From contig NZ_QOCB01000028.1 in NCBI RefSeq assembly GCF_003318165.1, positions 1-36,410 on the forward strand: DNA of 36,410 nt, written 5' to 3'. Every line of letters starts with the position of its first letter. The stretch's first letter is position 1. This document shows, one piece after another, positions 24,523 through 36,410 of the stretch. The notes under the pieces are model-generated. The model was not told where the DNA came from, searched no databases, and was given only the letters and a program-made list of their open reading frames with translations. The position numbers and the translations under genes were made by a program. The stretch comes from Psychromonas sp. B3M02. Lineage in GTDB: Bacteria; Pseudomonadota; Gammaproteobacteria; Enterobacterales; Psychromonadaceae.

Positions 24523-24564
24523 ATGCGTTTTGCAAGTCTCAATTTAAAATTGAGTAAAAAATGA
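24523..24564 (+). CDS. 13-residue repA leader peptide (tap/repY-like)
   Basis: MRFASLNLKLSKK is encoded with TTGGA upstream of its ATG. Its stop codon overlaps the repA start (ATGA at 24561-24564). This arrangement is the hallmark of IncFII and related replicons, where translation of a leader peptide opens the repA ribosome site and antisense RNA blocks it. A CTCAATTT-A-AAATTGAG hairpin lies just before repA, and repA itself has no ribosome site. Confidence 0.7.
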   Translation: MRFASLNLKLSKK

Positions 24565-25523
24565 AAACATCCAATGTAAGCTCGTTGGTTATTGATAATA
24601 ATTTTCATTTATTGTCAGATACCAAGCAATACAACCCGAATAAAATCAGGAAAAATTATTCTCGCAAGGCGAGGAATCCTAATCCTACTTATACTGTGCC
24701 TGATTCACATATAAAAAGGCTCTCTTTTATTAAAGAATTAGTTCATCTATCAAAAATAAAAGATGTTACTAGATCTGACGTTGCTATGTACTCAAGAGCT
24801 ACTGGTGAACGAAAAAGACGATTTTACCCTGATAGAGAAAAAGCAATAAAGGCTTTATTTAGTGTCTTTTGTGAACATGTAAATTTAGTTACTCATCAAG
24901 TGGAAATATCATTACGGAACGCAAGTGATGCTTCTGGTCTAAGTACCATATCTCAAAATGAAATTGATAAATCTGAAGCTGATAAAAACTATACACCAAT
25001 AACATCTATTTCAAGGGCAAGTAGAGCGTTTAAAGATATGGTTCTTATGGGATGGATTGTTGCGCCTAAACACTGGCAAATATGGGATAAAGAAAGGGGG
25101 TATTGGTTAGATAAATATTTTGAAGTTACCCCTCTTTTCTTTAAGGCGTTAGGTGTAACACCTGAGAGAGTAGAAAAACAACAACAAAACAGGTTGACCT
25201 TTCTAAAAAAAAGGGCCCTGGATAGCGGAATGACCGCTGAAACAGTAGGAAGAATGTCTATTAGCCAAATAAAAGCAGAAAGAAAGATTGCTTGGAGGCG
25301 TTACACATTTGATAGAAGAAAAACAGAGCAAACAAGGAAAAAGGAAAAGCGTCTGCTTAATGGCAAAAGTAGAGCAGAACAAAGAAATGTTGCCGCTTTA
25401 AAGGTAATAAAAATACTTGGTGATAATATCCATGAAATATCTACTCAAGATTTCACGGATCTAGTAAATAAAGAAATAGCCACAATGAGAAAATTCACAA
25501 ATTTAAAACCTCCTCTACATTAG
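24561..25523 (+). CDS. repA: IncFII-family replication initiator RepA
   Basis: This 320-residue protein has landmarks matching the IncFII RepA family in order: 'YSRKARNPNPTYT', 'HIKRLSFIKELVHL', 'DVTRSDVAMYSRATGERKRRFYPDREKAIKALF', 'SISRASRAFKDMVLMGWI', 'WQIWDKERGYWLDKYFEVTPLFFKALGV', then a basic C-terminal region. It is slightly longer than R1 RepA (about 285 residues). Translation depends on the overlapping leader peptide. Such proteins act mainly in cis on an origin downstream of the gene. Confidence 0.93.
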   Translation: MKTSNVSSLVIDNNFHLLSDTKQYNPNKIRKNYSRKARNPNPTYTVPDSHIKRLSFIKELVHLSKIKDVTRSDVAMYSRATGERKRRFYPDREKAIKALFSVFCEHVNLVTHQVEISLRNASDASGLSTISQNEIDKSEADKNYTPITSISRASRAFKDMVLMGWIVAPKHWQIWDKERGYWLDKYFEVTPLFFKALGVTPERVEKQQQNRLTFLKKRALDSGMTAETVGRMSISQIKAERKIAWRRYTFDRRKTEQTRKKEKRLLNGKSRAEQRNVAALKVIKILGDNIHEISTQDFTDLVNKEIATMRKFTNLKPPLH

Positions 25524-25929
25524 TTATATTAAGTTTTACCTTCATTATTTAACTGTTCCGAGCATTACTTGGGGCCTCCCCACGCCTAAAATCCATTCAG
25601 AATAATAATCAACAAGACTTTTATGTAAAAAACACCAGTCGATTTTTATTTAGCCTTTTTAAATGAATAAATTCTTTAAAAAAATCACTATTGAAAATCT
25701 TATACACTTATATATGCAAGCCTAAAACGAAAACATGTGCATATATTTGTTATATATGTGCAAAATTATTCTTCTATTTAATAAATCTTCTATTTAAGTT
25801 ATACGCAACAAAAAACAGTGAATAAATGCTTACCCCATTTCCTGCTTTCAGCAGGGGGGTATAACCACTAATCTTCAATGAGTTTACAATATGAAAAAAT
25901 AAGGGCCTGCGGGCGAAGCCTACGGCTCG
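25524..25929. other. putative CIS element and replication origin (oriV)
   Basis: The 406 bp downstream of repA hold no gene, as expected for an IncFII oriR region. A GGGG-CCT-CCCC hairpin at 25571-25581 could be the CIS terminator. TTATACACT near 25700 is a degenerate DnaA box, followed by an AT-rich segment (25700-25820). An AGCAGG/CCTGCT hairpin near 25849 resembles the downstream priming site. The assignment is by analogy to R1. Confidence 0.55.
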
Positions 25930-26108
25930 CAAAGTCAAAAGACGGTTAATCCAGGTGGGGGCTATGTTTTAAGCCTTCAGGCTAGCTTGAGCGAACCTAG
26001 TGCAACGTTCTAACGTAAGTTTGATAGTCGAACCCACAAGCTTTTACGCTTCGCTTTCTCCTGCGGAGGGCTTCTAGCATCACATTAAATAATTACAGTG
26101 TAACTTTT
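25930..26108 (-). repeat. 179-bp inverted repeat, right copy
   Basis: Exact reverse complement of 17442-17620, separated from it by 8,309 bp. It lies between the putative origin and a small membrane-protein gene and includes the TTACAGTGTAA palindrome at 26093-26103. No mismatch was found on comparison, which implies recent duplication or continuing gene conversion/inversion. Confidence 0.9.
26093..26103. promoter_or_regulatory. TTACASTGTAA palindrome in the right inverted repeat
   Basis: Mirror copy of the site at 17447-17457, located at the outer end of the repeat. Confidence 0.55.
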
Positions 26109-26278
26109 TAACAGAGTTAATCTGTGCCGGGTGTTCCCTCTTGAATATGAATTATTTTAAGTGCAGAGTTACACGTTCTAACCTATGCTTGTTTAATAAA
26201 CAAAGTGGGTGTTATCTTAAATCTATAAAAATTTATAACTATAAAATAGCTAGCTCAATAAAATTAATAGGTTTAATT

Positions 26279-26542
26279 ATGAATTTAGAATTATTATTAA
26301 GTTTTATTATTTCTATTTTTTGGTTTGTATTTTATTTCTGCAATCCAAAAAATATTTTAAATAGAGATATTTTTACAAAGAATATTTGTATGGGAATTGC
26401 GGCTGCCTTTTTACTTCGTTCTGTAGGAAGTTTAATTGGCCTTAAAGCTATAACAATATTAAGCAGTATTATTATGTTCTATATTTTTTATTGCATGTTT
26501 AAAAAATATAGAACTAACATTTTATCAAAAAACGGTTTGTAA
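26279..26542 (+). CDS. small membrane protein
   Basis: I place the start at the internal ATG 26279 (MNLELLLSF…), giving about 87 residues. The longer reading from 26141 adds a Cys/Lys-rich stretch unlike a membrane-protein N-terminus. Two or three hydrophobic helices are visible (LLLSFIISIFWFVFYFC, ICMGIAAAFLLRSVGSLIG, ITILSSIIMFYIFYCMF). No family is recognised. The ribosome site is weak (AGG). Confidence 0.5.
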   Translation: MNLELLLSFIISIFWFVFYFCNPKNILNRDIFTKNICMGIAAAFLLRSVGSLIGLKAITILSSIIMFYIFYCMFKKYRTNILSKNGL

Positions 26543-26561
26543 AAAGTATTAAATGCTTAGT

Positions 26562-26798
26562 TTATTTTTTAAAAATTAATAATTTACTATCAAATTGAGT
26601 GTCCTTTAAATCAATATAAGAATCATAAAACCATCCATTTTCAGCCTGTTCTGTAATAATTTTTTTAAGTTTAGCTGCTGCTTTATCTGCATTACCTACA
26701 AAAGTTATAGTTATTACATTTGTTTCTTGAAGAGGTTGTGCTTTAGCTGTAGTTAAAAAAATAGCTAGAAAAATAAATAAGATTTTATGATTTATCAT
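26562..26798 (-). CDS. small exported protein
   Basis: The ATG at 26798 has AAGGAAT upstream and starts a signal peptide (MINHKILFIFLAIFLTTAKA). The mature part of about 58 residues has the look of a DUF4177-type 'FVGNADKAAAKLKKIITEQAENGWFYDSY' domain. The longer reading from 26846 would bury the signal peptide. The function is unknown. Confidence 0.55.
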   Translation of the reverse strand: MINHKILFIFLAIFLTTAKAQPLQETNVITITFVGNADKAAAKLKKIITEQAENGWFYDSYIDLKDTQFDSKLLIFKK

Positions 26799-26957
26799 TT
26801 TTAATTCCTTTGTTAACTTATGACCACCTTTAACGAATTTTAACACTTATTTTTTAATTAAAATTTAACTGAAATTTTGGTGAGGACTAATTTTTCATAA
26901 ATTTATTAAAATTTAACAAATTTATGAATTACGTTATAATTAAATTTCTATAGTTTT

Positions 26958-27082
26958 CGTTGCTATCTCAACGTCACCACCGATTTATGTCGGTACATTA
27001 AGAGTGTTTACACTCCTGGCAATTTTATTGCCACTTCAAAACAGCTTTATAGCTGATCAAATAACACGATTTTTAATCGTGT
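26958..27082. repeat. chain of six short perfect hairpins before the antirestriction genes
   Basis: Consecutive hairpins: CGTTG/CAACG (26958-26973), ACCGA/TCGGT (26979-26994), GAGTG/CACTC (27002-27015), TGGCAAT/ATTGCCA (27017-27033), CAGCT/AGCTG (27042-27055) and ACACGATT/AATCGTGT (27064-27082). Most have T-rich 3-6 base loops. The stems differ in sequence, so this is conserved architecture rather than a sequence repeat. Confidence 0.75.
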
Positions 27083-27152
27083 CTTCAACCTTCGGGGCAG
27101 AACATCGCCCTATGGTGATATCTGCCCTTTTTAATTTAATTAGGAGTCAGAT
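27063..27152 (+). promoter_or_regulatory. structured leader, copy 1 (before the ArdB/KlcA gene)
   Basis: This ~90-base leader comprises an ACACGATT-TTT-AATCGTGT hairpin, a spacer TCTTCAACCTTCGGG and a long GGGCAGA…TCTGCCC hairpin (27095-27127). The latter has an inner ATCGCC-CTAT-GGTGAT stem. It is followed by T5, an AT-rich tail and AGGAGTCAGAT as ribosome site. It resembles an attenuator: terminator-like stem, then the start codon about 25 bases later. Confidence 0.8.
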
Positions 27153-27605
27153 ATGCAAAATCCAGTCGAATATGAAATTGAAAGAAATAAAGTTCCTGAT
27201 GATCAAAAATTAGAATTTTTTCCAAGTTTTGGTGATTGTAATACATGGGGTTTTATTCCATTAGAGGGTTTTATTTACTCTTTTGCCCAAAGATATATAG
27301 AAAATTACATTGGTGGTTATTGGCATTATGTTAATTTATCCAATGGTGGAAAATACATTTATATATCAGACGTTAAAGAGCTTGTATTAACCAATAGTTT
27401 CAATTATTTTTCTGAAAAAATGAATAGTGAATTAGCTGGAATAATAATTTGTTCATTTGTATATGCTCAATGTAGTGAATATGCATATGCTCAAGGACGT
27501 TTGGAGTTATATGAGCAATTCAAAAACCATTTTAATGCTTTAAAAGCATATGTATTAACATTAGACAAAAAATCTAGAAGTATGTACTTTGGATTTTTAG
27601 ATTAA
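27153..27605 (+). CDS. antirestriction protein, ArdB/KlcA family
   Basis: This 150-residue protein has the family core: 'EGFIYSFAQRYIENYIGGYWHYVNLSNGGKYIY' (residues 38-70, matching the conserved Y-x-GGYW…LSNGG), followed by 'FNYFSEKMNSELAGIIICSFVYAQC', where 'AGII' is also conserved. ArdB/KlcA proteins block type I restriction in vivo and protect incoming plasmid DNA. It has a good ribosome site inside the repeated leader. It is the first of four genes sharing that leader. Confidence 0.9.
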   Translation: MQNPVEYEIERNKVPDDQKLEFFPSFGDCNTWGFIPLEGFIYSFAQRYIENYIGGYWHYVNLSNGGKYIYISDVKELVLTNSFNYFSEKMNSELAGIIICSFVYAQCSEYAYAQGRLELYEQFKNHFNALKAYVLTLDKKSRSMYFGFLD

Positions 27606-27628
27606 ATTTAATGATATTAATATAGACA

Positions 27629-27719
27629 AACACGATTTTTAATCGTGTCTTCAACCTTCGGGGCAGAACATTGCCCTATGGTGATATCTGCCCTTTTTAA
27701 TTTAAATTAGGAGTCAGAT
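27629..27719 (+). promoter_or_regulatory. structured leader, copy 2
   Basis: Nearly identical to copy 1. A C-to-T change in the inner stem (ATTGCC) still allows a G-U pair with GGTGAT. It contains the ribosome site AGGAGTCAGAT directly before the ATG at 27720. Confidence 0.8.
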
Positions 27720-28046
27720 ATGACGAATAGAAAAACTAATCCTGCACAAATATCGATGTTTCATTATTACCTTACCAAAGGTGTATTAAAGCAATCGACT
27801 GATACGAACGTGCAAGAATTTATTAGCATAAGTGAAAATGACTTTGTTGTTAGAATGTATGATTATGCGGTGATTCTTGAGGAAATTTATTTGTCCACTG
27901 AATCTAATGTAGAAAATGAATCTAATGATTTTGTTAAAGTTATTGAATCTCTTTGTTTTTGGCTTTGGAGTGAAATTTGTATCACTTACAAATTACCAAC
28001 AATTGGGGATTTTTTAAATGAAACAAGAAAAGCCTTAGCTAGCTAA
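27720..28046 (+). CDS. unknown small protein in the antirestriction block
   Basis: This 108-residue, acidic, mostly helical protein begins with 'TNRKTNPAQISMFHYYLTKG' and has a central 'FVVRMYDYAVILEEIYLSTE' helix. No known domain is recognised. It shares leader, orientation and size range with the ArdB/KlcA-like and RadC-like genes, so a role in plasmid establishment or anti-defence is plausible but unproven. Confidence 0.7.
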   Translation: MTNRKTNPAQISMFHYYLTKGVLKQSTDTNVQEFISISENDFVVRMYDYAVILEEIYLSTESNVENESNDFVKVIESLCFWLWSEICITYKLPTIGDFLNETRKALAS

Positions 28047-28062
28047 ATATTTTTTATAAACC

Positions 28063-28153
28063 AACACGGTTTTTAATCGTGTCTTCAACCTTCGGGGCAG
28101 AACATTGCCCTATGGTGATATCTGCCCTTCTAAATTTAAATTAGGAGTCAGAT
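28063..28153 (+). promoter_or_regulatory. structured leader, copy 3
   Basis: As copy 2, but the first stem reads ACACGGTT, where G replaces A and can still pair with U. The T-run after the long stem is interrupted (TTCT). The ribosome site is the same, before the ATG at 28154. Confidence 0.8.
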
Positions 28154-28579
28154 ATGTATCATCGTTTTAAATTATTTCATGGCGTAATATTAATTTCTGA
28201 TAAGTTAGTCAATGACATAAATTACTTGTTTAATTCAGTTGCTAAACAAGTTGTTAATCAACAATCACCAGAGGATGTAATAGCATTCATTGCTGATTTG
28301 TTTGACGTAGATTCATCTATAAATAGCAATGGTTACAATGAAGATAAAATTTGTAAACTTGCTGTTGTTATTTTGAATTTACGATTGGCTTATTTTGATG
28401 ATCTAGATATTGCAGTCGAAGAATTTAATCAAGAAAATTTACCTCTTACAGTCGGCACTCAAGAAGGGGCCTTTTACCCTTCAGGTATAGGACATTGGTA
28501 TGATCAACTAGAATTTGTTTTCATACCTAGAGATAAATTAGAACCTTTCGATTCTATCGACATATATGCTCGTATATAG
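28154..28579 (+). CDS. unknown acidic protein in the antirestriction block
   Basis: This 141-residue, strongly acidic protein has a helical N-terminal two thirds ('SPEDVIAFIADLFDVDSS', 'ICKLAVVILNLRLAYFDDLDIAVEEF'). A C-terminal part with 'GAFYPSGIGHWYDQLEFVFIPRDKL' follows. No family is recognised. Its acidity and position recall DNA-mimic anti-defence proteins, but that is inference only. Confidence 0.7.
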   Translation: MYHRFKLFHGVILISDKLVNDINYLFNSVAKQVVNQQSPEDVIAFIADLFDVDSSINSNGYNEDKICKLAVVILNLRLAYFDDLDIAVEEFNQENLPLTVGTQEGAFYPSGIGHWYDQLEFVFIPRDKLEPFDSIDIYARI

Positions 28580-28605
28580 CATTAAGAACCATAAAAAAAT
28601 CAACT

Positions 28606-28696
28606 AACACGACTTAACAATCGTGCTTTCAACCTTCGGGGCAGAAAATCGCCCTATGGTGATATCTGCCCTTTTTAATTTAATTAGGAGTCAGAT
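28606..28696 (+). promoter_or_regulatory. structured leader, copy 4
   Basis: The most diverged copy. The first hairpin is CACGA-N8-TCGTG with a changed loop, and the long GGGCAGA/TCTGCCC stem has AAAATCGCC in place of AACATCGCC. The 3' part, T-run and ribosome site are conserved before the ATG at 28697. Confidence 0.78.
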
Positions 28697-29152
28697 ATGA
28701 CTAATTTTACAAAAAAAGAACAATCAGCTATCGATAAAGCCATTAATATTATCGAAAGCAAGGCCGAAAATTCTTCATTTTTTGCGACTAATGCTGTTCA
28801 AGTAAAACAATACTGTCAGCTTAAAATAGGTAGCGAATATAGAGAATATTTTGGAGTGTTATTTTTAAATTCACAAAATGAACTCATTCACTTTGAGGTC
28901 TTATTTAAAGGTGGACTTGATTCAGCATCAGTACATGTTGATATTGTTACAAAAGAAGCTCTTATTCGATCAAGTAAAAATGTAATTGTGTGCCACAATC
29001 ACCCAAGTGGTGATGTTACACCTTCACAAGCTGACATGAATATAACTAAAAAAATTGAAACTTGTTTAGATTTATTCGATATCAGATTACTAGATCATAT
29101 AATTGTTAGCAAAATCAATACATTCAGTTTTGCAGAAAAAGGTATGCTTTGA
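28697..29152 (+). CDS. RadC-like JAB/MPN-domain protein
   Basis: This 151-residue protein has the metal-binding JAMM motif 'CHNHPSGDVTPSQAD' (H100, H102, S110, D113). It is preceded by 'GVLFLNSQNELIHFEVLFKGGLDSASVH' and 'IVTKEALIRSSKNVIV', typical of RadC. The N-terminal helix-hairpin-helix part of chromosomal RadC is absent, as in many ICE and plasmid versions. The biochemical role is not established. Such genes commonly accompany antirestriction genes. It is the last gene of the leader-linked set, followed by a strong terminator. Confidence 0.9.
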   Translation: MTNFTKKEQSAIDKAINIIESKAENSSFFATNAVQVKQYCQLKIGSEYREYFGVLFLNSQNELIHFEVLFKGGLDSASVHVDIVTKEALIRSSKNVIVCHNHPSGDVTPSQADMNITKKIETCLDLFDIRLLDHIIVSKINTFSFAEKGML

Positions 29153-29154
29153 CC

Positions 29155-29186
29155 AAAAACCAACTATTTTTTAATAGTTGGTTTTT
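29155..29186 (+). terminator. strong terminator after the RadC-like gene
   Basis: A 14-bp perfect stem, AAAAACCAACTATT/AATAGTTGGTTTTT, with a TTTT loop and A/T runs on both sides, so it works in both directions. It starts 2 bases after the stop codon. Confidence 0.88.
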
Positions 29187-29191
29187 ATTTG

Positions 29192-29213
29192 CGTATAGCA
29201 TTTATGATATACA
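29192..29213. promoter_or_regulatory. 22-bp palindrome upstream of the XRE-like gene
   Basis: CGTATAGCA-N5-GATATACA, differing from the 13792 copy only in the first base. It lies 78 bases before the XRE-like start and just after the terminator, a natural operator position. Confidence 0.6.
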
Positions 29214-29250
29214 TTAATAATCCTGAAAAGTGTTGATTTATTGACCTGTT

Positions 29251-29275
29251 ACCGCCATAATAAAGCGGTTTTTAA
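29251..29275 (+). promoter_or_regulatory. possible attenuator before the XRE-like gene
   Basis: ACCGC-N9-GCGGT (29251-29269) is followed by TTTTAATTT, 20 bases before the XRE-like start codon and just ahead of its ribosome site. Stem and CCAT loop resemble the AAACCG…CGGTTT hairpins in the transfer operon. Confidence 0.45.
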
Positions 29276-29291
29276 TTTGAGGAGAAATGTT

Positions 29292-29612
29292 ATGTCAGAA
29301 TCAAAACCTATGTACAATGGTCAATCTACCCCAAACACACTAGAAGCGTTTAAAAATAGAAATTGTGGTTTGGGCATACAATCTGAAAACTATGTTCACC
29401 CAACTACAGACGAGGTGAGAGCGTTAAGAAAATTAATTGGGTTTTCTCAGAATGAACTTGCTCTATTTACTGGGGTGGGCTTTGACCCTAAAAAAGGGTC
29501 TTCTACGATTAGAAAGTGGGAAGAAAAAAAAGGTGGACTGAGCTGTATAACCAAGTCTTCTTGGCAATTGATGTTAATTAAATCAGGTTTAATTAACATT
29601 GATTGCATTTAA
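29292..29612 (+). CDS. XRE-type HTH protein
   Basis: I place the start at the ATG 29292, preceded by GAGGAG, giving about 106 residues. The HTH is 'VRALRKLIGFSQNELALFTGV…SSTIRKWEEKKGG', with a long insertion between the recognition helices as in plasmid-type regulators. It is convergent with traG and lies downstream of a 22-bp palindrome. It is likely a local transcriptional regulator. Its last codons form a 12-bp perfect hairpin (29571-29599). Confidence 0.75.
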   Translation: MSESKPMYNGQSTPNTLEAFKNRNCGLGIQSENYVHPTTDEVRALRKLIGFSQNELALFTGVGFDPKKGSSTIRKWEEKKGGLSCITKSSWQLMLIKSGLINIDCI

Positions 29613-29618
29613 AGTAAT

Positions 29619-31220
29619 TTATTTGTTGGGGAAGCTTTTCATAATATTAGATATACCCTTAGAAGCTCCCCTCATAGCGCCAGATGCCATCCTTCCCCCT
29701 GCCGCTCCTAAACCACCTGTTAACGCTCCTGCTTGAAGCCCTCTAATTACATTGTAACCGCTCCATCCTGAAATAATCGCAAATACAAGTGGGATGGCTA
29801 TATATAAATAATTTAGCATATACATTAATATGAGATTTCTATTTGCCTGGGTTACTCCTCCTGCATCTATCACGGTAAAAGGAATAGAGCCAGAAGGGAA
29901 AATAGAAGCTAAAATATTTTGATCTAACCACCAAGCAATCATCCAACATGCACTTAAAAACCTAAAGCTGAAAAGTGCCCAGGTAATAATTAATACTCCT
30001 TTTATGGAAAAAGACGTTAGAAGTAAGACGAAAGGAATAAACATTACAATCAATAGTAATAAAATAGCTTGGGCCATAGGTGCTGCGTTTAATAGCATGG
30101 AAACAACCACTGAATTTGTAACTGTTTCTACACCACCACCTACTAGTCCTGCAAATTGTTTCAAGTGGCGATTTACTTCAGATGTAAAAGATCCATTACC
30201 ATAAGTTGAGTTGGAGTAATTAAAATCATAACCACGGGGGGTAAAAGACTCAGGAGACTGTGCTATTGCGCGTGTTAATAATATGTCTTCCTGATCAGCA
30301 ACCCCAAACTCACTAGCTACTGTTGAATGCATTATCTCGGCCCAAGAAATGTCATCATAAATTTTTTCTCTAAGTCCATTAGAGTTGGCCCACCAATTGT
30401 CACAATAAGGTTTTCCATTGTCAGGAACATCGGGATCTGTTGGGTCCCACTCTACATCCCTTGAAGAGTTATAAGGGAATCCCTCTACAATGACTTCAGC
30501 ACGAATAGAGTCATAATAACCTGGGGTTGATAAATAAATATGAGAACCCTCCCAATAAGGGTCGTTTTGCCCTTCAGCATCTAATATATTATTTATATCT
30601 GTTACATAATTACCCGTTTCATTGGGTTTCTCTGATTTATATTTGCTTAACGCTTTTACATAACAATCGCGTCTGAAATCTTGTAACTCAGCTCTTGTTT
30701 CAGGGTCTTTTACTTCTAGTTTTTTTAGGGTTTCTATATATTCTCGAATATCTACAGGTGCAGAAAGAGAAGTCATTATTGCGTGTGTAATACCTAGTGA
30801 ATAATCATGAACGAACCACCAAAAAGGAGGAACTTCAACATCTAAAGGGTAGTCACTAAAGGATAAACCTTCACCATAAGTTGAGTCATTAGAGGCGATA
30901 TCATAACTCGATTGCGAAGCTGAATTTACCATGCTTGAAGGTGTAAAATTAACGTCTGTCGCATCAAAACTTAAATAAGGAACGCCACAAAGCATTATAA
31001 CAATACAGGCCAGGACCATTTCACCTAAAAGGTTACTTTGCGCCTCTTTTTCTGAATAATCGTCAGTATCGCTTTTTCCATAATTAGCTAAGTGATCAAA
31101 AACCATTCCAATAAAAGGTAATAACAATACCCCTGTTGCCTCTAGTACTCCCCAGATAGTTCCATATAATTGCCAACTATATAACAAAGTAAACATTTCT
31201 AAATAGCTATCAGTACCCAT
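29619..31220 (-). CDS. traG: TraG N-domain mating-pair/pilus protein
   Basis: This 533-residue inner-membrane protein has N-terminal helices around 'LYSWQLYGTIWGVLEATGVLLLPFIGMVFD' and a further helix at ~70-88. A large periplasmic domain follows, then four or five C-terminal helices (residues ~370-500) and a Gly/Ala-rich tail ('GGLGAAGGRMASGAMRGASKG'). This is the TraG-N arrangement of GI-type T4SS, needed for pilus assembly and mating-pair stabilisation. It is the last gene of the transfer operon. The F-type C-terminal extension is absent. Confidence 0.9.
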   Translation of the reverse strand: MGTDSYLEMFTLLYSWQLYGTIWGVLEATGVLLLPFIGMVFDHLANYGKSDTDDYSEKEAQSNLLGEMVLACIVIMLCGVPYLSFDATDVNFTPSSMVNSASQSSYDIASNDSTYGEGLSFSDYPLDVEVPPFWWFVHDYSLGITHAIMTSLSAPVDIREYIETLKKLEVKDPETRAELQDFRRDCYVKALSKYKSEKPNETGNYVTDINNILDAEGQNDPYWEGSHIYLSTPGYYDSIRAEVIVEGFPYNSSRDVEWDPTDPDVPDNGKPYCDNWWANSNGLREKIYDDISWAEIMHSTVASEFGVADQEDILLTRAIAQSPESFTPRGYDFNYSNSTYGNGSFTSEVNRHLKQFAGLVGGGVETVTNSVVVSMLLNAAPMAQAILLLLIVMFIPFVLLLTSFSIKGVLIITWALFSFRFLSACWMIAWWLDQNILASIFPSGSIPFTVIDAGGVTQANRNLILMYMLNYLYIAIPLVFAIISGWSGYNVIRGLQAGALTGGLGAAGGRMASGAMRGASKGISNIMKSFPNK

Positions 31221-31222
31221 CT

Positions 31223-31549
31223 TTAATCACTCCATAACATGAATGGAAATCTCAAAACTAAAAATATTTCATAAAAAAGAATGAAAGCTATGGCTAGTTT
31301 GATAACCCATCTGATATTCTTTTTTTTGCTTAAAAAATACAAAAATATAAAAAATAAAAAATATTCAATAAGCCTAATAACAGAAAAAAATACTTTATTT
31401 TCTTTGGCGTAATTAACGATAGCTAGGTCATTAGTCTCAAGAGCATTAAAAAACAAAAAAATAGTAATGATTATCAAAAAACCAGTACCTAATAATTTGT
31501 ATTTATTTCGGAAAAAAAACTGAAATAACGATTTAAACATAACAATCAC
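31223..31549 (-). CDS. small transfer-operon membrane protein
   Basis: This 108-residue protein has three hydrophobic helices (LLGTGFLIIITIFLFFNAL, FSVIRLIEYFLFFIFLYFLS, WVIKLAIAFILFYEIFLVL). It is packed between the TIGR03755-like gene and traG with gaps of 0-2 bases, so it is part of the transfer machinery. The specific family is not recognised. Confidence 0.7.
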   Translation of the reverse strand: MIVMFKSLFQFFFRNKYKLLGTGFLIIITIFLFFNALETNDLAIVNYAKENKVFFSVIRLIEYFLFFIFLYFLSKKKNIRWVIKLAIAFILFYEIFLVLRFPFMLWSD

Positions 31550-32908
31550 CTACCTTTTAATTCGCCCGTCTTCGAGTTGATTACCTTGTTCATTTTGTAC
31601 AGGTGCGGTTCCATTAGCAGCTTGTTCTTGCTGTCTTACTAGGTTTAGTAGTAAAGGTATAGATTCACCCATTAAACTTTTTTTAACTTCATTTTCTTTC
31701 AAAACAAGATCTATCTCTTCGTCTAACTCAGTTATTGATTCGCTTACTTTTTCAGTTATTGCTTTAGATGAATAAACATCAGATTCCTTTTTACCAGTGG
31801 CTAGTGTTCTACGAATTAACAGAGCTGAATTAATAGTGTCTGAAATAGCTATTTCATCAGATAATCTATTAATAAATATTGATGCCTTTCTGTCTCCAAG
31901 TGTTCTTAGGCCCGTAATAATTTGGGCTGTTACCATTAAGCCTGGGGCAGAAATTTCGCTTAGATTATCTAAAGTCGCTTCAGTAGAGCCGTTATACATA
32001 TCTATAAGGCCGTTATACACTTCTGTCTTTCTGCTATTAACTAAAGGCAACAACCCTGCCCCAGGTGTAGAACTTGAAGAGCTAGAGCTGTCTTCATCAT
32101 AAGTAACATCACCTACAACTAATTTAACCCACTCCTTTACAGCGGCAGGGCTTTCAAATTTAGTAATTAATTCTTCTGAACTTGTTGTAGATGCAACTAC
32201 AGAGGTTTCACATTCATTTCGATCTAAAAGCCTGTTGTAACCAATTGAGGCCACATCTGTGATGATGTTATATGGCGTTTGATTCTCGCCCCCTGCTCTT
32301 CCATAACAAGGGTGAACAATTCCATTTACTTTTGAATCTTCAGCTGCTTCTTGAACGTTTAATATATCGACTCCTGATGTACCTACGCTTGACTTCCAAG
32401 TATCCCCAACTGAAATGCTTGCTAAATCTTCAAAAGGGTCTTGACCGTCCTGTATTTCTGCCTGAATCATTTCACAAGACTTGGTTGCTAAATCAAAATC
32501 TACTTCAGCAGAAGCAATAGCATTCATGAATAAATCGTATAAATTAGGATTTACTTTGCTCAATACATATCCAGGTAAATTTGCGATAGCGGCAGTTGCG
32601 GCAGATTCCATTTGAGTATATGAATCCTCTAATCCACTTTTTACGCTGTTTAATGTATTTGAAATGGTTATATTTGGATCAAACCCACCACAAGTTAAAC
32701 CTGTGGTCGATGTTTTATAGCTGAGAAGAATTGAGGTTACTTGCCACCTTGGTAAAGCTCTAAAAGCTCTTCCTCCACCTAATTTATAATAAAATAATGA
32801 ATCTGCTACAGGAGTAGTATCTGAAGCCAGTACGGTATTTGGTATTGATCCAAGGTTGAAAACTAAAACCACGGGTAACACCATTGATTTAAATATAACT
32901 TTTTTCAT
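31550..32908 (-). CDS. integrating conjugative element protein (TIGR03755, PFL_4711 family)
   Basis: This 452-residue exported protein has a signal peptide (residues 1-28, ending TVLASD). Landmarks are 'SLFYYKLGGGRAFRALPRWQVTSILLSYKTSTTGLTCGGFDPNI' and 'GIVHPCYGRAGGENQTPYN'. The C-terminus is helical and Glu/Lys-rich. It is probably a periplasmic or outer-membrane pilus-assembly protein, analogous in position to TraH. Confidence 0.87.
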   Translation of the reverse strand: MKKVIFKSMVLPVVLVFNLGSIPNTVLASDTTPVADSLFYYKLGGGRAFRALPRWQVTSILLSYKTSTTGLTCGGFDPNITISNTLNSVKSGLEDSYTQMESAATAAIANLPGYVLSKVNPNLYDLFMNAIASAEVDFDLATKSCEMIQAEIQDGQDPFEDLASISVGDTWKSSVGTSGVDILNVQEAAEDSKVNGIVHPCYGRAGGENQTPYNIITDVASIGYNRLLDRNECETSVVASTTSSEELITKFESPAAVKEWVKLVVGDVTYDEDSSSSSSSTPGAGLLPLVNSRKTEVYNGLIDMYNGSTEATLDNLSEISAPGLMVTAQIITGLRTLGDRKASIFINRLSDEIAISDTINSALLIRRTLATGKKESDVYSSKAITEKVSESITELDEEIDLVLKENEVKKSLMGESIPLLLNLVRQQEQAANGTAPVQNEQGNQLEDGRIKR

Positions 32909-32920
32909 TATTACAATCCT

Positions 32921-34078
32921 TTAGATGCAAATATGGAGTGGCACTGTATTGATATAAGATCCTTTCCTTTGGCAACATTCGTACTTTCGCCAAACTATAT
33001 AAACAGAAGGGGATTTGTTAGTTTTCCATCTATCAGTAGTCCAATCTGAATAACTTGCAGTGTTTTCACTTTCAGCTATTTCATCAAAAACAACACAGGT
33101 ATCATCTTTTTTAGGAAGTCTCATTTGCCAAGCACTGCCATCGCTGCCATCGGCTTTTGTTGTGCTAGGAGTAAAGAAGAATTTTTGACTGCTACCTGAA
33201 GGAGTTCCTGTAGAGGGCATATAAACGCGAGAATTATTATTAGAGCTAACTATATTTACCGCTCTCATGGAAAGAACTGCGTTAGCTTTTGCAGGGTTTA
33301 ACTGCTTAATGAACCCCGTTCTCCAATATAAACTTCCCCACTCTTTTATGTATGGGATTCCAATTGATTCAGTGAAGATTAAAGGCGTATAAAGGATATC
33401 TGTTAAACCAGTTCTCCAGAGGTAAGCATCAAAACCACTTGAGTAATAAGGTACAAAAGGTTTAGTGGTGCTATCACAAAAGTAATCATCATCTATTTGA
33501 GAAAAATCATAGTAATACCCTGCTACATCAACTTCTCTAAAAGTCGTTGAAAGTACTTTGTTACCAGTTCCACCTTTTGATGCTTTGGTGGTCGTTTTAC
33601 CTCCTCCTGTGTCAGCACTACTTCCAATCCATGAAATAACCGACTCGCCAACGCTCTTTTCCAAATCACCCCATATCAAACGAAACTCTGTCCACGGGTT
33701 ATCTCCAAGTTCGCTAAAGGCTGACACTACAAAGTCGGGGTTACGATGGCTCATTCGTAATGATGAGCGAATGGTACAACCCGTAAAACCACAACTTAAA
33801 AACATGCACGTACCTTCAAAACAATAATCGGTGCAGTCTAGGTTTGTAATTGGGTCTACAAACAACTCAAATGAAGAAATATCATTATCGTCAGGATCAT
33901 TGTTAGTAAAGTCTTGAAGGGGTGATTCGATGGATTGCTCTTGACTGTAAACAGAATCTAACGATTCTTCAAAAATTTGATAGTCATCATCACTCATAGA
34001 GTCTTCATAACTATAATCCAGGGCGTTAACGTTAAAAACGCAAAAAATAAAACACAGTAAGCAGATATGATTTATCAT
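32921..34078 (-). CDS. TraU-like pilus assembly protein (TIGR03756, PFL_4710 family)
   Basis: This 385-residue exported, Cys-rich protein has a signal peptide to about residue 19. After an Asp/Ser-rich segment comes 'LDCTDYCFEGTCMFLSCGFTGCTIRSSLRMSHRNPDFVVS', a hallmark of TraU-type proteins. 'DDTCVVFDEIAESENTASYSDW…YIVWRKYECCQRKG' lies near the end. Many disulfides are expected in the periplasm. Coupled by 4 bp to the upstream TIGR03757-like gene. Confidence 0.88.
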   Translation of the reverse strand: MINHICLLCFIFCVFNVNALDYSYEDSMSDDDYQIFEESLDSVYSQEQSIESPLQDFTNNDPDDNDISSFELFVDPITNLDCTDYCFEGTCMFLSCGFTGCTIRSSLRMSHRNPDFVVSAFSELGDNPWTEFRLIWGDLEKSVGESVISWIGSSADTGGGKTTTKASKGGTGNKVLSTTFREVDVAGYYYDFSQIDDDYFCDSTTKPFVPYYSSGFDAYLWRTGLTDILYTPLIFTESIGIPYIKEWGSLYWRTGFIKQLNPAKANAVLSMRAVNIVSSNNNSRVYMPSTGTPSGSSQKFFFTPSTTKADGSDGSAWQMRLPKKDDTCVVFDEIAESENTASYSDWTTDRWKTNKSPSVYIVWRKYECCQRKGSYINTVPLHICI

Positions 34079-34506
34079 TTTTTATCCCCTGTATTAAGGA
34101 ATATTTGTAATGCTTTATTTAAATTTAATTCACCATAGACAATATATTTTTGGTTAAAAATAATGGCAGGGTATTTATCTAGTTTATATTTTAACGTTAG
34201 GATTTTTGCTTTGTATGCCTTCATTACCTCGGGGGCTAATGAATTATTAATACGTTCATCGGCTTGTTTTCTTGCTTTTTCAGGGTCACTTGAAAGGCCA
34301 AAAGATAACCTTTTTTCCATACTGGCTACATCATCGGTTGAGAAAATAGAGAAATCTCCTCCGTGATAAGTAAAATAAGCCTTAACTTTATTAACGCCCT
34401 TTAAATTTAACTTTTGTTTTTCATTAACAACAACCTCCATTTCAAATGGCGTCATTGAGTAACAGAAGTTAGAAAAAAGTAAAATAGAAAAAATAAAATA
34501 TTTCAT
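34075..34506 (-). CDS. integrating conjugative element protein (TIGR03757, PFL_4709 family)
   Basis: This 143-residue exported protein has a signal peptide to about residue 17. The fold is TrbC/thioredoxin-like, with the C-terminal 'KYPAIIFNQKYIVYGELNLNKALQIF' typical of the family. It probably assists pilus assembly in the periplasm. The start overlaps the stop of the TraC-like ATPase gene (ATATGA). Confidence 0.85.
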   Translation of the reverse strand: MKYFIFSILLFSNFCYSMTPFEMEVVVNEKQKLNLKGVNKVKAYFTYHGGDFSIFSTDDVASMEKRLSFGLSSDPEKARKQADERINNSLAPEVMKAYKAKILTLKYKLDKYPAIIFNQKYIVYGELNLNKALQIFLNTGDKK

Positions 34507-36410
34507 ATAGCTTTCCTTTTTTGTTTAATCTGTTCTGAAATCATCTCTACTGCATCAAGTTCACTAATACCGTGTAAATCCATTAATTTTTTGCGAGCTG
34601 ATTTTTCATTAGGGTCTGTCATAGCTAAGGCTAAGGCGAAACTGGGTGGGATACTTCTAAAAAGGGAAGGGGGCATTGTTTTAGAGAGAACAACGCCTTC
34701 TGTATAAAGACCTCTCATTTTATGGCAACTAAGAAGCAAACTTTTTTGGTTGTCATCAATATCTCTAAATTTAGAAATTTGCTCAATTTCTTCCTTAGGA
34801 CAGGCCATGGCAATGAACCATTCGAACATTGAAAGCATTTTTTTTGAGTCATTAGCCCAATCTTCTAAGTTCTGAGTTGCAAACCAAGGCCAAGTATCGA
34901 GCTTTCTCATCATTTTGCCTATCTTTACAACATAGGGGGCTAGTAGTTCGTTTTTTAAAAATAAATGGCTTTCATCACCAATTACTATAATAGGTCTCCC
35001 TGAATATTGATCTCGCTCTGCAATGGATATTATTTGCTGCATTTGAGTCATAAATGATAAAGCTAATTGTCCTTCATAACCCTCTTGTGCAAATAAACCA
35101 AAATCCATAATGGTAACGTCAACCTCTGGTAAGGGTTCCCCTGGGGAATTGAAAATATTTCCTTCAAGTCCTTCAGAATAACGAGACATAGATTTAGCCA
35201 TTGATCTTAATTTATCTTTTTCTGCACTTCCATTTGGAGCATTTTTAGATAATAAATTTAACTCTTCTATCACGTCTGATGGTCGAACAATTTTATCTTT
35301 TTCAGAATTTTCTTTGTTCTCAAAATATAGTTTTTTTGCAGCAATATTTATCGCTTCTCTTATAGATACTTTATGTTCAGCTCGTAATTCATCCTCTTCT
35401 ATCTTGTCCCCACCAGTTATCATTACACGCGCTAATAACTCCATTTCACCCAAATAATCCCTAGCTTCATTATCATCTTCATCATCTATAATTGGTTTAG
35501 GATTTTCTTTTTCATCTATCATTTTTGTGGCGTTAGCAAACGGAGGAAGTGAAATCTTTCCATTGGGTTTTAAGGATACTCTGTTAACAGACATATCCAT
35601 TTTTGATAAATATTGACCCAAAAGCTTGAAGCTATCTCCTTTTTCTAAGATGAAAAACCTGGGTCTTGCGATAGCGGCCCACATCCAAATCATATATACC
35701 AATAGAGCTGACTTACCTGAACCCGGTGGACCTAAAATAGCACCAAAGGCATTACTAGAACGGTCTTTTAAAATATCAAATGAAAAATCTTCTGCTCCTC
35801 TATTAAAAAATATTAACCCTGGATTGCCTGTGCCTCTTGATCTGCCGTATAAAGGCAATAAATTAGAAATCTGAGAGCTGAAGAGCAACCTTGATCTCAT
35901 ATCGTATTCATCATTTTTGAAGTCGTAACAAAATGGCAAATTAGTACAAAATTGATTTAAAGGTATTTCATCGTCTCGACTATCTATTAGGTGAATATCA
36001 TTATTCATAAGGAGGGATTTAATAGTTCTTATGTTTGAATTTAAATCTTTTTTATCATTCCCTTTGATAAAAAAAGTGGTTGTTACGGGATAAAGATGAT
36101 CACCTGATTCAATTGCATCTAAAGCAGATTCGGCCTGAATTTTCGATTGTTTAGATTCAGAACTACCTCCCTTTGAACTGTTTTTAATTTTATCTATTTT
36201 CGACTTTATAAAAGAAGAAGGAGCAATCGTTACGGTTATATTTGTCATGGTCCCTGTAGGGAACTTGTCAAAAACCGCAAAAAATTTATCTGAATGGTTT
36301 CGTTCAGCGGACAAATGACCGACTTTGGGAACCTTGCGATATGCGTTTACTGTAAAAGCTTTGAAAAGTTTTTTACCAAATTCCCAGGTACCATCTTTCA
36401 AATTAGAATG
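34503..36410 (-). CDS. TraC/VirB4-like conjugative ATPase, C-terminal part
   Basis: This is the C-terminal ~635 residues of the ATPase whose N-terminus lies at 1-785. The frame is open to 36410, so the apparent TTG start at 36401 is not a real start. Walker A GPPGSGKS lies near residue 487 of the joined protein and Walker B in 'RPIIVIGDESHLFL'. 'GKMMRKLDTWPWFATQNLEDW' and 'EWFIAMACPKEEIEQISKFR' are typical C-terminal elements. Counting the shared GAATG once restores NEPHSNLKDG across the junction. A direct head-to-tail join without removing those five bases would shift the frame and stop within a few codons. Confidence 0.9.
   Translation of the reverse strand, partial: HSNLKDGTWEFGKKLFKAFTVNAYRKVPKVGHLSAERNHSDKFFAVFDKFPTGTMTNITVTIAPSSFIKSKIDKIKNSSKGGSSESKQSKIQAESALDAIESGDHLYPVTTTFFIKGNDKKDLNSNIRTIKSLLMNNDIHLIDSRDDEIPLNQFCTNLPFCYDFKNDEYDMRSRLLFSSQISNLLPLYGRSRGTGNPGLIFFNRGAEDFSFDILKDRSSNAFGAILGPPGSGKSALLVYMIWMWAAIARPRFFILEKGDSFKLLGQYLSKMDMSVNRVSLKPNGKISLPPFANATKMIDEKENPKPIIDDEDDNEARDYLGEMELLARVMITGGDKIEEDELRAEHKVSIREAINIAAKKLYFENKENSEKDKIVRPSDVIEELNLLSKNAPNGSAEKDKLRSMAKSMSRYSEGLEGNIFNSPGEPLPEVDVTIMDFGLFAQEGYEGQLALSFMTQMQQIISIAERDQYSGRPIIVIGDESHLFLKNELLAPYVVKIGKMMRKLDTWPWFATQNLEDWANDSKKMLSMFEWFIAMACPKEEIEQISKFRDIDDNQKSLLLSCHKMRGLYTEGVVLSKTMPPSLFRSIPPSFALALAMTDPNEKSARKKLMDLHGISELDAVEMISEQIKQKRKAI

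Follow-up and report, generated by a model that had tools for sequence, protein, structure and literature searches.

A strong translational attenuator is reported to lie upstream of the bet gene of SXT and to be present also in IncA/C plasmids, and the same passage portrays the SXT bet/exo genes as abundantly transcribed yet hindered in translation (PMC4542580, citing Garriss et al. 2013). Other structured elements with related gene neighborhoods are the radC RNA (RF01754) and the STAXI motif, the latter found near SSB, antirestriction and integrase genes (both from excerpts of Weinberg 2010), and Frpo, which a passage in PMC11541004 places upstream of an SSB gene in leading regions. Here we analyze a stretch of 36,410 nucleotides (nt) from Psychromonas sp. 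B3M02 (GCF_003318165.1, NZ_QOCB01000028.1, positions 1 to 36,410, forward strand; hereinafter, the window), in which four leaders, each in front of a different gene, share two rival RNA folds. We consider it probable, at roughly 0.8, that these leaders are cis-acting bistable translational attenuators of establishment and DNA-processing genes. Because similar leaders precede DNA-handling and anti-defense genes on other conjugative elements, they are best read as a family of translational attenuators that is so far unrecorded, with the bet attenuator of SXT and the IncA/C plasmids as its sole reported case; apart from the passage on that attenuator, the literature that we searched contained no recognized account of such a family.

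The leaders of the window belong to direct repeats of about 102 nt that occur four times (27055-27156, 27621-27722, 28055-28156 and 28599-28700), each terminating at the ATG of a gene. These repeats, together with the Pfam matches of the first and the last gene (PF03230 and PF04002), bear out the original prediction, made from this DNA alone, that near-identical leaders precede an ArdB/KlcA-like gene, two genes without an assigned function and a RadC-like gene; the ribosome site that had been described as identical, AGGAGTCAGATATG, indeed consists of the same letters in all four leaders. By blastn, the leader is present in four copies in its own genome and has no match in any of the 23 other genomes of the genus that were searched. 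When folded as RNA, every copy surpasses 200 of 200 dinucleotide shuffles (z = -5.15, -5.21, -4.56 and -3.79). Overlooked in the original prediction was the complementarity between CAGATAT, which lies between the Shine-Dalgarno sequence (SD) and the AUG, and ATATCTG, the 3' side of the terminator-like hairpin, amounting to seven Watson-Crick pairs in all four leaders. The terminator-like complementarity itself, GGGCAGA/TCTGCCC, is likewise found in 4/4, and when the RNA is folded in one frame of sequence, the minimum free energy (MFE) structure of each copy contains the former pairing and not the latter. In the alignment of the covariance model R2 (see below), the leader starts with AACC(C) and a G-rich/C-rich hairpin, P1, which in the window reads AACCTTCGGGGC...GCCC..GGT. 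We divide the leader into six segments, a-b-c-d-e-f, and place the leaders and the segments as follows.

27087..27155, + strand: leader 1, from AACC to ATG, before the ArdB/KlcA-like gene (sequence and RNA folds; R2 17.6 bits, E 0.047 in the window)
27088-27090, 27107-27110 and 27114-27116, + strand: segments a (ACC), c (GCCC) and d (GGT) of leader 1
27094-27101, + strand: segment b of leader 1, GGGGCAGA
27118-27124, + strand: segment e of leader 1, ATATCTG (followed by CCC)
27142-27146, + strand: SD of leader 1, AGGAG
27148-27154, + strand: segment f of leader 1, CAGATAT
27653..27722, + strand: leader 2, before the gene starting at 27720 (repeat and RNA folds; R2 19.1 bits, E 0.023)
28087..28156, + strand: leader 3, before the gene starting at 28154 (repeat and RNA folds; R2 16.9 bits, E 0.068)
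28631..28699, + strand: leader 4, before the RadC-like gene (repeat and RNA folds; R2 17.5 bits, E 0.05)

Segments b and f compete because both pair with one middle arm, e, and a further competition arises among segments a-d. In what we denote the OFF fold, a pairs with d and b with c, together forming P1, and e pairs with f; in the SD-free fold, b pairs with e and the c:d pairing lies inside this hairpin. For window leaders 1-4, the OFF energies are -21.5, -22.4, -23.9 and -21.5 kcal/mol, and the best SD-free energies are -21.0, -18.2, -18.2 and -21.0 kcal/mol, that is, the two folds are predicted to be a poised pair.

Relatives of the window leaders were detected through a weak blastn match (E 9, 55% of the leader) to 66 plasmid records, two of which, pRA1 and pR210-2-VIM, typed as IncA, were examined; at this match, pRA1 has the same layout in other letters. 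A scan of pRA1 for three-way complementarity yielded 30 plus-strand and 13 minus-strand sites, compared to 9-14 in five shuffles, and the 73.8-101.9 kb region contains 23 leaders with AACC(C), or a near form, and P1, most of them with both rival pairings. These 23 were selected visually from 38 starts, and two of them (74206 and 87959) do not coincide with annotated starts of coding sequences (CDS). Given that MAFFT combined with RNAalifold gave zero consensus pairs for the 27 leaders of pRA1 and the window, sequence alignment cannot register the leaders and a structure-guided seed was needed. The covariance model R1 was built from 14 rows (two from the window and twelve from pRA1) with the OFF pairs as its only structure; R2 comprises 58 rows and no window sequence. 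R1 matched pRA1 (74-100 kb) and the window, with a single weak match of 13.1 bits in stretch L010 and none in L008. It also matched 16 of the 369 genomes of the class (E 0.01) and one of the 24 genomes of the family, the Psychromonas genome itself being among the 24; in the matched genome, the leaders lie in a gene module that encodes SSB, RecT/Bet and the YqaJ exonuclease. R2 matched 14/398 genomes of the phylum and, over 502,720 bases, gave 127 matches at E 1, some of which are reverse-strand or partial P1 echoes; there was none in L008 or L010 at this cut-off. Within the window, R2 places the four leaders at ranks 1-4, with 16.9-19.1 bits against 10.7 for the next match, and these modest scores, along with the shared anatomy, suggest that the window leaders belong to the family.

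On several contigs, as in the window, runs of leaders precede successive genes. Scanning named genomes for a broader pattern found 29 stretches, and good R2 matches in these come from Shewanella profunda, Citrobacter, Providencia (the chromosome and the plasmid p8538-NDM-1), Thiorhodococcus, Methylobacter, Thiocystis and other Gammaproteobacteria; the pattern-scan matches in Collinsella, Clostridia and Bacteroidaceae were discarded as palindrome-like or partial. When leaders of the window type were searched as DNA patterns, there was no match in the viral_contigs or genome_contigs sets, and the relatives of the RadC gene on four Vibrio/Photobacterium plasmids have no such leader by eye and no R2 match at E 1.

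Both rival pairings covary in a leader-specific manner. In a set of 22 pRA1 and window leaders (five near-duplicates of 27 removed), the e:f pairing scores -14.1 for cognate and -9.8 for swapped partners, and b:e -22.1 versus -15.1, with 0/20000 permutations each and no effect for the control b:f; the test is positive on the minus-strand reading too and hence shows pairing, not strand. Cognate arms also pair better in 42 non-redundant leaders that were found in other genomes with R1, a model that lacks b:e, and that exclude pRA1, the window, the match L017:109+ and near-duplicates. Here, b:e reaches -12.55 for cognate and -8.69 for non-cognate partners, the best permutation being -10.38, and e:f reaches -8.57 versus -3.76; none of the 20000 permutations was as good in either case, and the control b:f again did not distinguish cognate from non-cognate partners. 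In the 58-row alignment, 94.9% of the cells of the OFF pairs are paired, compared to 71.9% after shuffling, the covariation score is 0.610 versus 0.170, and two-sided changes occur in all seven pairs of the e:f helix, measures that lean towards OFF because the alignment was fitted to the OFF model. That diverged relatives retain both pairings with different letters contradicts the notion that the repeats are a mere product of recent gene-cassette duplication or gene conversion, with no function; despite the near identity and similar spacing of the four window copies, which are what such an origin would produce, we find this explanation scarcely credible.

The strand on which the pairing is kept was assessed by counting G.T and A.C combinations, which were scored alike, in 55 leaders (L017:109+ and near-duplicates dropped). 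For b:e, there are 50 G.T and 2 A.C, compared to 1407:464 for non-cognate partners, and for e:f, the ratio is 22:5, compared to 497:577; the sense strand is the one whose pairing is kept. The original prediction had claimed, from the four copies, that pairing is preserved only on the + strand. Copies 2 and 3 agree with this through a C-to-T change, and copy 3 also through an A-to-G change; in copy 4, the changes in the short hairpin favor the minus strand (5 pairs on + versus 8 on minus with DNA parameters). The four copies differ too little to carry an argument on the strand, a question that is settled only by the wider family. In that family, the pattern of covariation and G-U pairs, the absence of which had been named in advance as refuting, is present, so the RNA reading is not refuted. 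The covariation of the two rival pairings and the asymmetry of G.T and A.C also support the proposal that selection acts on an RNA transcript whose role is attenuator-like.

The sense-strand bias argues for an mRNA and against the alternative originally offered, a single-stranded promoter like Frpo, which would be active on the transferred DNA strand as it enters a cell. Establishment-type genes, strong DNA hairpins on both strands and the reported place of Frpo upstream of an SSB gene in leading regions would fit such a promoter, and the leaders indeed resemble Frpo/ssi, as described in the passage cited above, in being structured DNA before establishment genes of conjugative elements. However, Frpo/ssi are DNA promoters on the transferred strand, whereas in the leaders it is the sense strand that takes part, with the SD and the start codon among the pairing partners. 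In Frpo, the paired strand would be the template strand, contrary to the b:e count of 50 versus 2. The hairpins contain no strong -35/-10 elements, the nearest candidate (9/12 at 28135) spanning the linker and the start of leader 3. Altogether, we regard a promoter of this type as very improbable.

The order in which the two folds appear was approximated by MFE folding of leaders of increasing length. Among the 23 pRA1 and 4 window leaders, 23/27 pass through the SD-free fold and 25/27 end in OFF. In a set of 93 non-redundant leaders (13 from pRA1, none from the window), 73 have the SD-free fold as their MFE at one or more nascent lengths, 86 end in OFF, and 67 do both. For this set, 10 of 120 rows were dropped first (L017:109+, L088 twice, L089 twice, L111, L102, L090:2944+, L100:7525- and L100:7947+), and near-duplicates were removed. 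In ten sets of half-swapped chimeras, in which the 5' half of one leader was joined to the 3' half of another, the SD-free fold was reached in 18.8 on average and in 24 at most. In kinetically controlled leaders, such as those of the MS2 maturation gene and the hok mRNA, the nascent fold differs from the final one and sets translation. The leaders described here are similar in having a nascent passage fold, and, unlike the MS2 and hok leaders, which serve one gene each, precede many genes; we know of no sequence relation between them.

These results also bear on a simpler explanation, namely, that the leader is a fixed translational damper, in which e:f (and P1) alone matters, output is kept low, and the SD-free hairpin is never a switch. 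The prevalence of OFF among the final folds, often favored by a wide margin in pRA1, is what this explanation predicts, and the hindrance of bet is reported without a switch in the passage in PMC4542580. A fixed damper needs no b:e, yet b:e covaries with no permutation as good, and the SD-free passage occurs in 73/93 leaders compared to at most 24 chimeras; we therefore deem a fixed damper unlikely, and a bistable attenuator remains the preferred interpretation.

As a rule, the anatomy of the leaders favors a switch at the level of translation over one at transcription, because the SD arm is a pairing partner and 53/93 leaders lack a T-run. Among the matches of at least 25 bits, 59/72 end at an SD-like site followed by an open reading frame (ORF) of at least 40 amino acids (aa), compared to 175/4000 random places, although SD-like sites at match ends are partly expected from the 3' arm of the model; three of 75 rows had been dropped (two of L064 that duplicate L049, and L017:109+). 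The rival possibility is a transcriptional attenuator, with b:e as an intrinsic terminator and P1 as the antiterminator. In keeping with such a device, TTTTTAATTT follows the hairpin in 3/4 window copies, and a T-run (at least 5 T in 8) is found 3' of the hairpin in 40/93 leaders, compared to 4 for A and 18 for C as controls. By contrast, the run is absent in the majority of the leaders, copy 3 of the window reads TTCTAAA, which interrupts it, and a scan found no terminator-like site on the + strand at the window leaders, with the limitation that it allowed loops of up to 8 and would overlook this hairpin. Furthermore, the account of SXT bet/exo as highly transcribed and translationally hindered speaks for control after transcription. 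We consider transcriptional attenuation as the general mechanism to be quite unlikely. No conserved unpaired core resembling that of metabolite riboswitches was seen by eye; the letters of the loops and arms vary.

The model matches include leaders of bet/recT genes (PF03837) in L047, where the gene adjoins those for SSB and the YqaJ exonuclease, in pRA1, and in L059; in the Pfam scan, none of the four window genes is bet. Since these bet leaders are members of the family, one member probably has experimental support for its OFF state, to the extent that the passage in PMC4542580 describes it. The attenuator of the SXT/R391 integrative and conjugative elements and the IncA/C plasmids resembles the leaders in sitting at bet and in having its reported effect at translation; it is described in that passage at bet only, whereas the leaders occur in many copies before unrelated genes and have a covarying SD-free fold.

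Taken together, on the evidence of the sequences, the window leaders are real sense-strand bistable RNA leaders. In the mechanism that we propose for the bistable attenuator, which follows the order of MFE folds computed for most leaders, P1 would form first in the growing RNA and give way to the SD-free hairpin, in which f and the SD are exposed; once f is transcribed, the OFF fold would take over, and ribosome loading would be blocked because e pairs with f, the segment between the SD and the AUG. A fresh mRNA would be translatable briefly and would then close, unless some factor held the SD-free fold; a factor that held b:e would make the leader an inducible switch. We infer that the window leaders act in the manner reported for the bet attenuator, that cells make use of the SD-free fold, and that switching helps the element to establish itself once transferred. 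As originally suggested, one signal might switch on all four window genes when the plasmid enters a cell.

Several points weigh against this interpretation, in addition to the minus-strand result, the OFF bias of the 58-row measures and the expected SD-like sites mentioned above. The likeness to the bet attenuator is drawn through the passage in PMC4542580, and the two may differ in their exact structure. As the 23 pRA1 leaders were picked by eye, tests on them are not independent; the R1 seed held two window sequences, the R2 rows were collected using R1, and the calibration of both models was short. The models can be fooled by palindromes, as illustrated by the end of a Collinsella contig that scored 33.6 bits after pattern pre-selection and looks false. 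The R2 E-values of the window leaders are 0.023-0.068 in 36 kb, the whole-genome model searches at E 0.01 gave no report of these leaders, and the four window copies count as nearly one event. As for the folds, the window leaders reach OFF as the MFE only in the last 1-5 nt of the folded stretch, and copy 4, when eight bases of coding sequence are included in the fold and the short hairpin is left out, prefers the SD-free, terminator-like hairpin. In the 93-leader set, the SD-free fold is never the nascent MFE in 20 leaders and the final state is not OFF in 7, and step-by-step MFE is not folding kinetics. Because 40/93 leaders carry a T-run, termination may contribute in some of them. Finally, a search for a trigger found no ProQ/FinO domain on pRA1, so an element-borne protein of this type was rejected as the trigger there; each of the four genomes searched has one ProQ.

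Rfam 15 contains no family with a match in the window above its gathering score, and lax scans of the leader stretches gave only chance-like sub-threshold matches at the leaders: AgrB on the minus strand of window leaders 1 and 2 (20.1 and 18.9 bits against a threshold of 40; E 2.4 and 4.4), DAOA-AS1_2 in L063 and snoU82P in L060. Reportedly, a 2017 study by Weinberg named motifs after DUF3577 and DUF3085; the stretches with leaders before DUF3577 or DUF3085 genes have no Rfam match to the motifs so named. The radC RNA was detected above threshold in 1/339 genomes (G285), in four copies (L043-L046). In all four, leader-like R2 matches start at -33 to +18 nt from the 3' end of the radC RNA (E 0.019-0.69 in 12.6 kb); two are clear (L044, before a DUF3577-like gene, and L046, with a 33-nt overlap) and two are weak. 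Given this adjacency in 4/4 copies, the radC RNA may be an upstream companion of the leader, and P1 may be contained in a part of the alignment published for this RNA, in that its last hairpin can be the P1 of the leader. Like the leaders, the radC RNA neighbors the same kind of genes; unlike them, it is an RNA of 149 positions. Identity of the two was rejected, as RF01754 has 0 matches in the Psychromonas genome at E 10 and none in pRA1 at E 0.1. The adjacency slightly reduces the distance of the leaders from known elements and leaves the case for a switch unaffected. STAXI, in the excerpt describing it, shares the gene neighborhood and differs in consisting of tandem pseudoknots; it did not turn up in the Rfam scans of the leader stretches and was rejected as well.

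The genes behind the leaders are the DNA-processing and establishment part of conjugative elements. The RadC-like proteins behind leaders outside the window contain PF04002 in 8/8 of those scanned; the other genes encode ArdC (L063), RecT/Bet, YqaJ exonuclease, DUF3150, CbbQ-type AAA and VWA proteins, DUF3577, DUF932, DUF6094 and C-5 methyltransferases and a helicase, and, on pRA1, also YfbR. A DUF3085 gene on pRA1 follows a hand-picked leader to which there was no model match, and several leader-gene proteins have no Pfam match.

A further recurrent element was noticed on pRA1 (L009), where eight pseudoknot-like elements on the + strand, at 73671, 74720, 79043, 83463, 87864, 91644, 94785 and 97053, start about 23-65 nt before leaders. 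Each has TAGCTGG in a loop, a changing stem (GAGA/TCTC, GCGA/TCGC or GAGG/CCTC), and then an A-rich stretch and CAGC; the element is found also in L090, L101 and L108, and in L071 with the stem GAAGG/CCTTC. It has no Rfam match at these sites and could belong, as a further RNA element, to the regulon of the leaders. In L050 (G246, contig 1, 52-7373), nine matches of at least 26 bits precede successive genes in about 7 kb. The arms of several are almost identical, reminiscent of the near-identical copies of the window, which may reflect local duplication or conversion of leaders. Two plasmids have leaders of other kinds. In the Vibrio cholerae plasmid pSA7G1 (L013), a different recurring leader, GGCAATCCCGCCGC, precedes the SD, often with a TTGACC promoter-like stretch, upstream of the CDS at 925, 5472, 6401, 7366 and 8195, with changed forms before others and no R2 match; in a Photobacterium plasmid (L014), identical leaders lie upstream of 3635 and 5699, and their start region, AAGGACTC, could pair with the upstream GAGTCCTT, possibly making another SD-hiding leader of different layout.

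The remaining features around the leader array of the window are the following.

26913..26940, + strand: promoter-like TTAACA-16-TATAAT upstream of the array (11/12 matches), possibly a common promoter
27064..27082, + strand: short upstream hairpin of leader 1, a component of the repeat, with counterparts before leaders 2-4 (RNA fold)
27153..27605, + strand: ArdB/KlcA-like antirestriction gene (PF03230, 5.4e-13)
27720..28046, + strand: 108-aa protein, function unassigned (ORF)
28154..28579, + strand: 141-aa protein, function unassigned (ORF)
28697..29152, + strand: RadC-like (JAB) gene (PF04002, 1.1e-39)

Promoter-like sites around the array number 10, fewer than the shuffle mean of 15.1. The short upstream hairpin is found in 57/95 leaders, compared to 38-45/95 at sites farther upstream and a mean of 21 in shuffles, and is not clearly part of the wider leader family (for this count, the first nine of the ten rows listed above were dropped and the four window rows added, and 95 were left once near-duplicates and rows lacking upstream sequence had been removed). 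Five short hairpins in series lie upstream of leader 1, downstream of the promoter-like site (26958-27055); their stability exceeds that of shuffles on either strand (z -4.16 on + and -3.82 on -). The short hairpins that precede leaders 2 and 4 (27628-27650 and 28606-28627) are terminator-like on the minus strand; three such sites occur in the region, with 1.0 expected. The ArdB/KlcA-like protein has weak PADLOC matches, to cyclase models only (0.00073 and 0.0092); the 108-aa protein has no Pfam match above the cut-off, the 141-aa protein none at 0.1, and neither has a PADLOC match at 0.01. The 24561-36401 region of the window contains an IncFII RepA-family gene (PF02387) and, 3' of the array on the minus strand, TraG_N, TraU and TraC_F_IV genes, from which the window looks like part of a conjugative plasmid.

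Matches to a leader-bearing stretch of pRA1 (72-80 kb) occur in 841 of 72,556 plasmid records and cover 80% or more of the stretch in 756, so an RNA brake of this kind would sit on many IncA/C-type conjugative plasmids. If the leaders are switches, they would explain how conjugative elements silence costly DNA-processing and anti-defense genes in residence, by a general, gene-independent design in which the letters are free and the rival pairings are fixed; the single remark on SXT bet would be widened into the question of a family. More tentatively, and with the odds against it, we suggest a post-transcriptional regulon, in which a shared trans signal, from the element or the host, holds dozens of sequence-unrelated leaders in the SD-free fold at a defined moment. 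Such a regulon would produce a synchronous, self-ending pulse of anti-restriction, recombination and DNA-processing proteins, for example, on arrival in a new cell, and would constitute a layer of control beside the Frpo- and AcaCD/SetCD-type promoters; the radC RNA or the pseudoknot-like element of pRA1, located just upstream, could then be the site where the signal is read.

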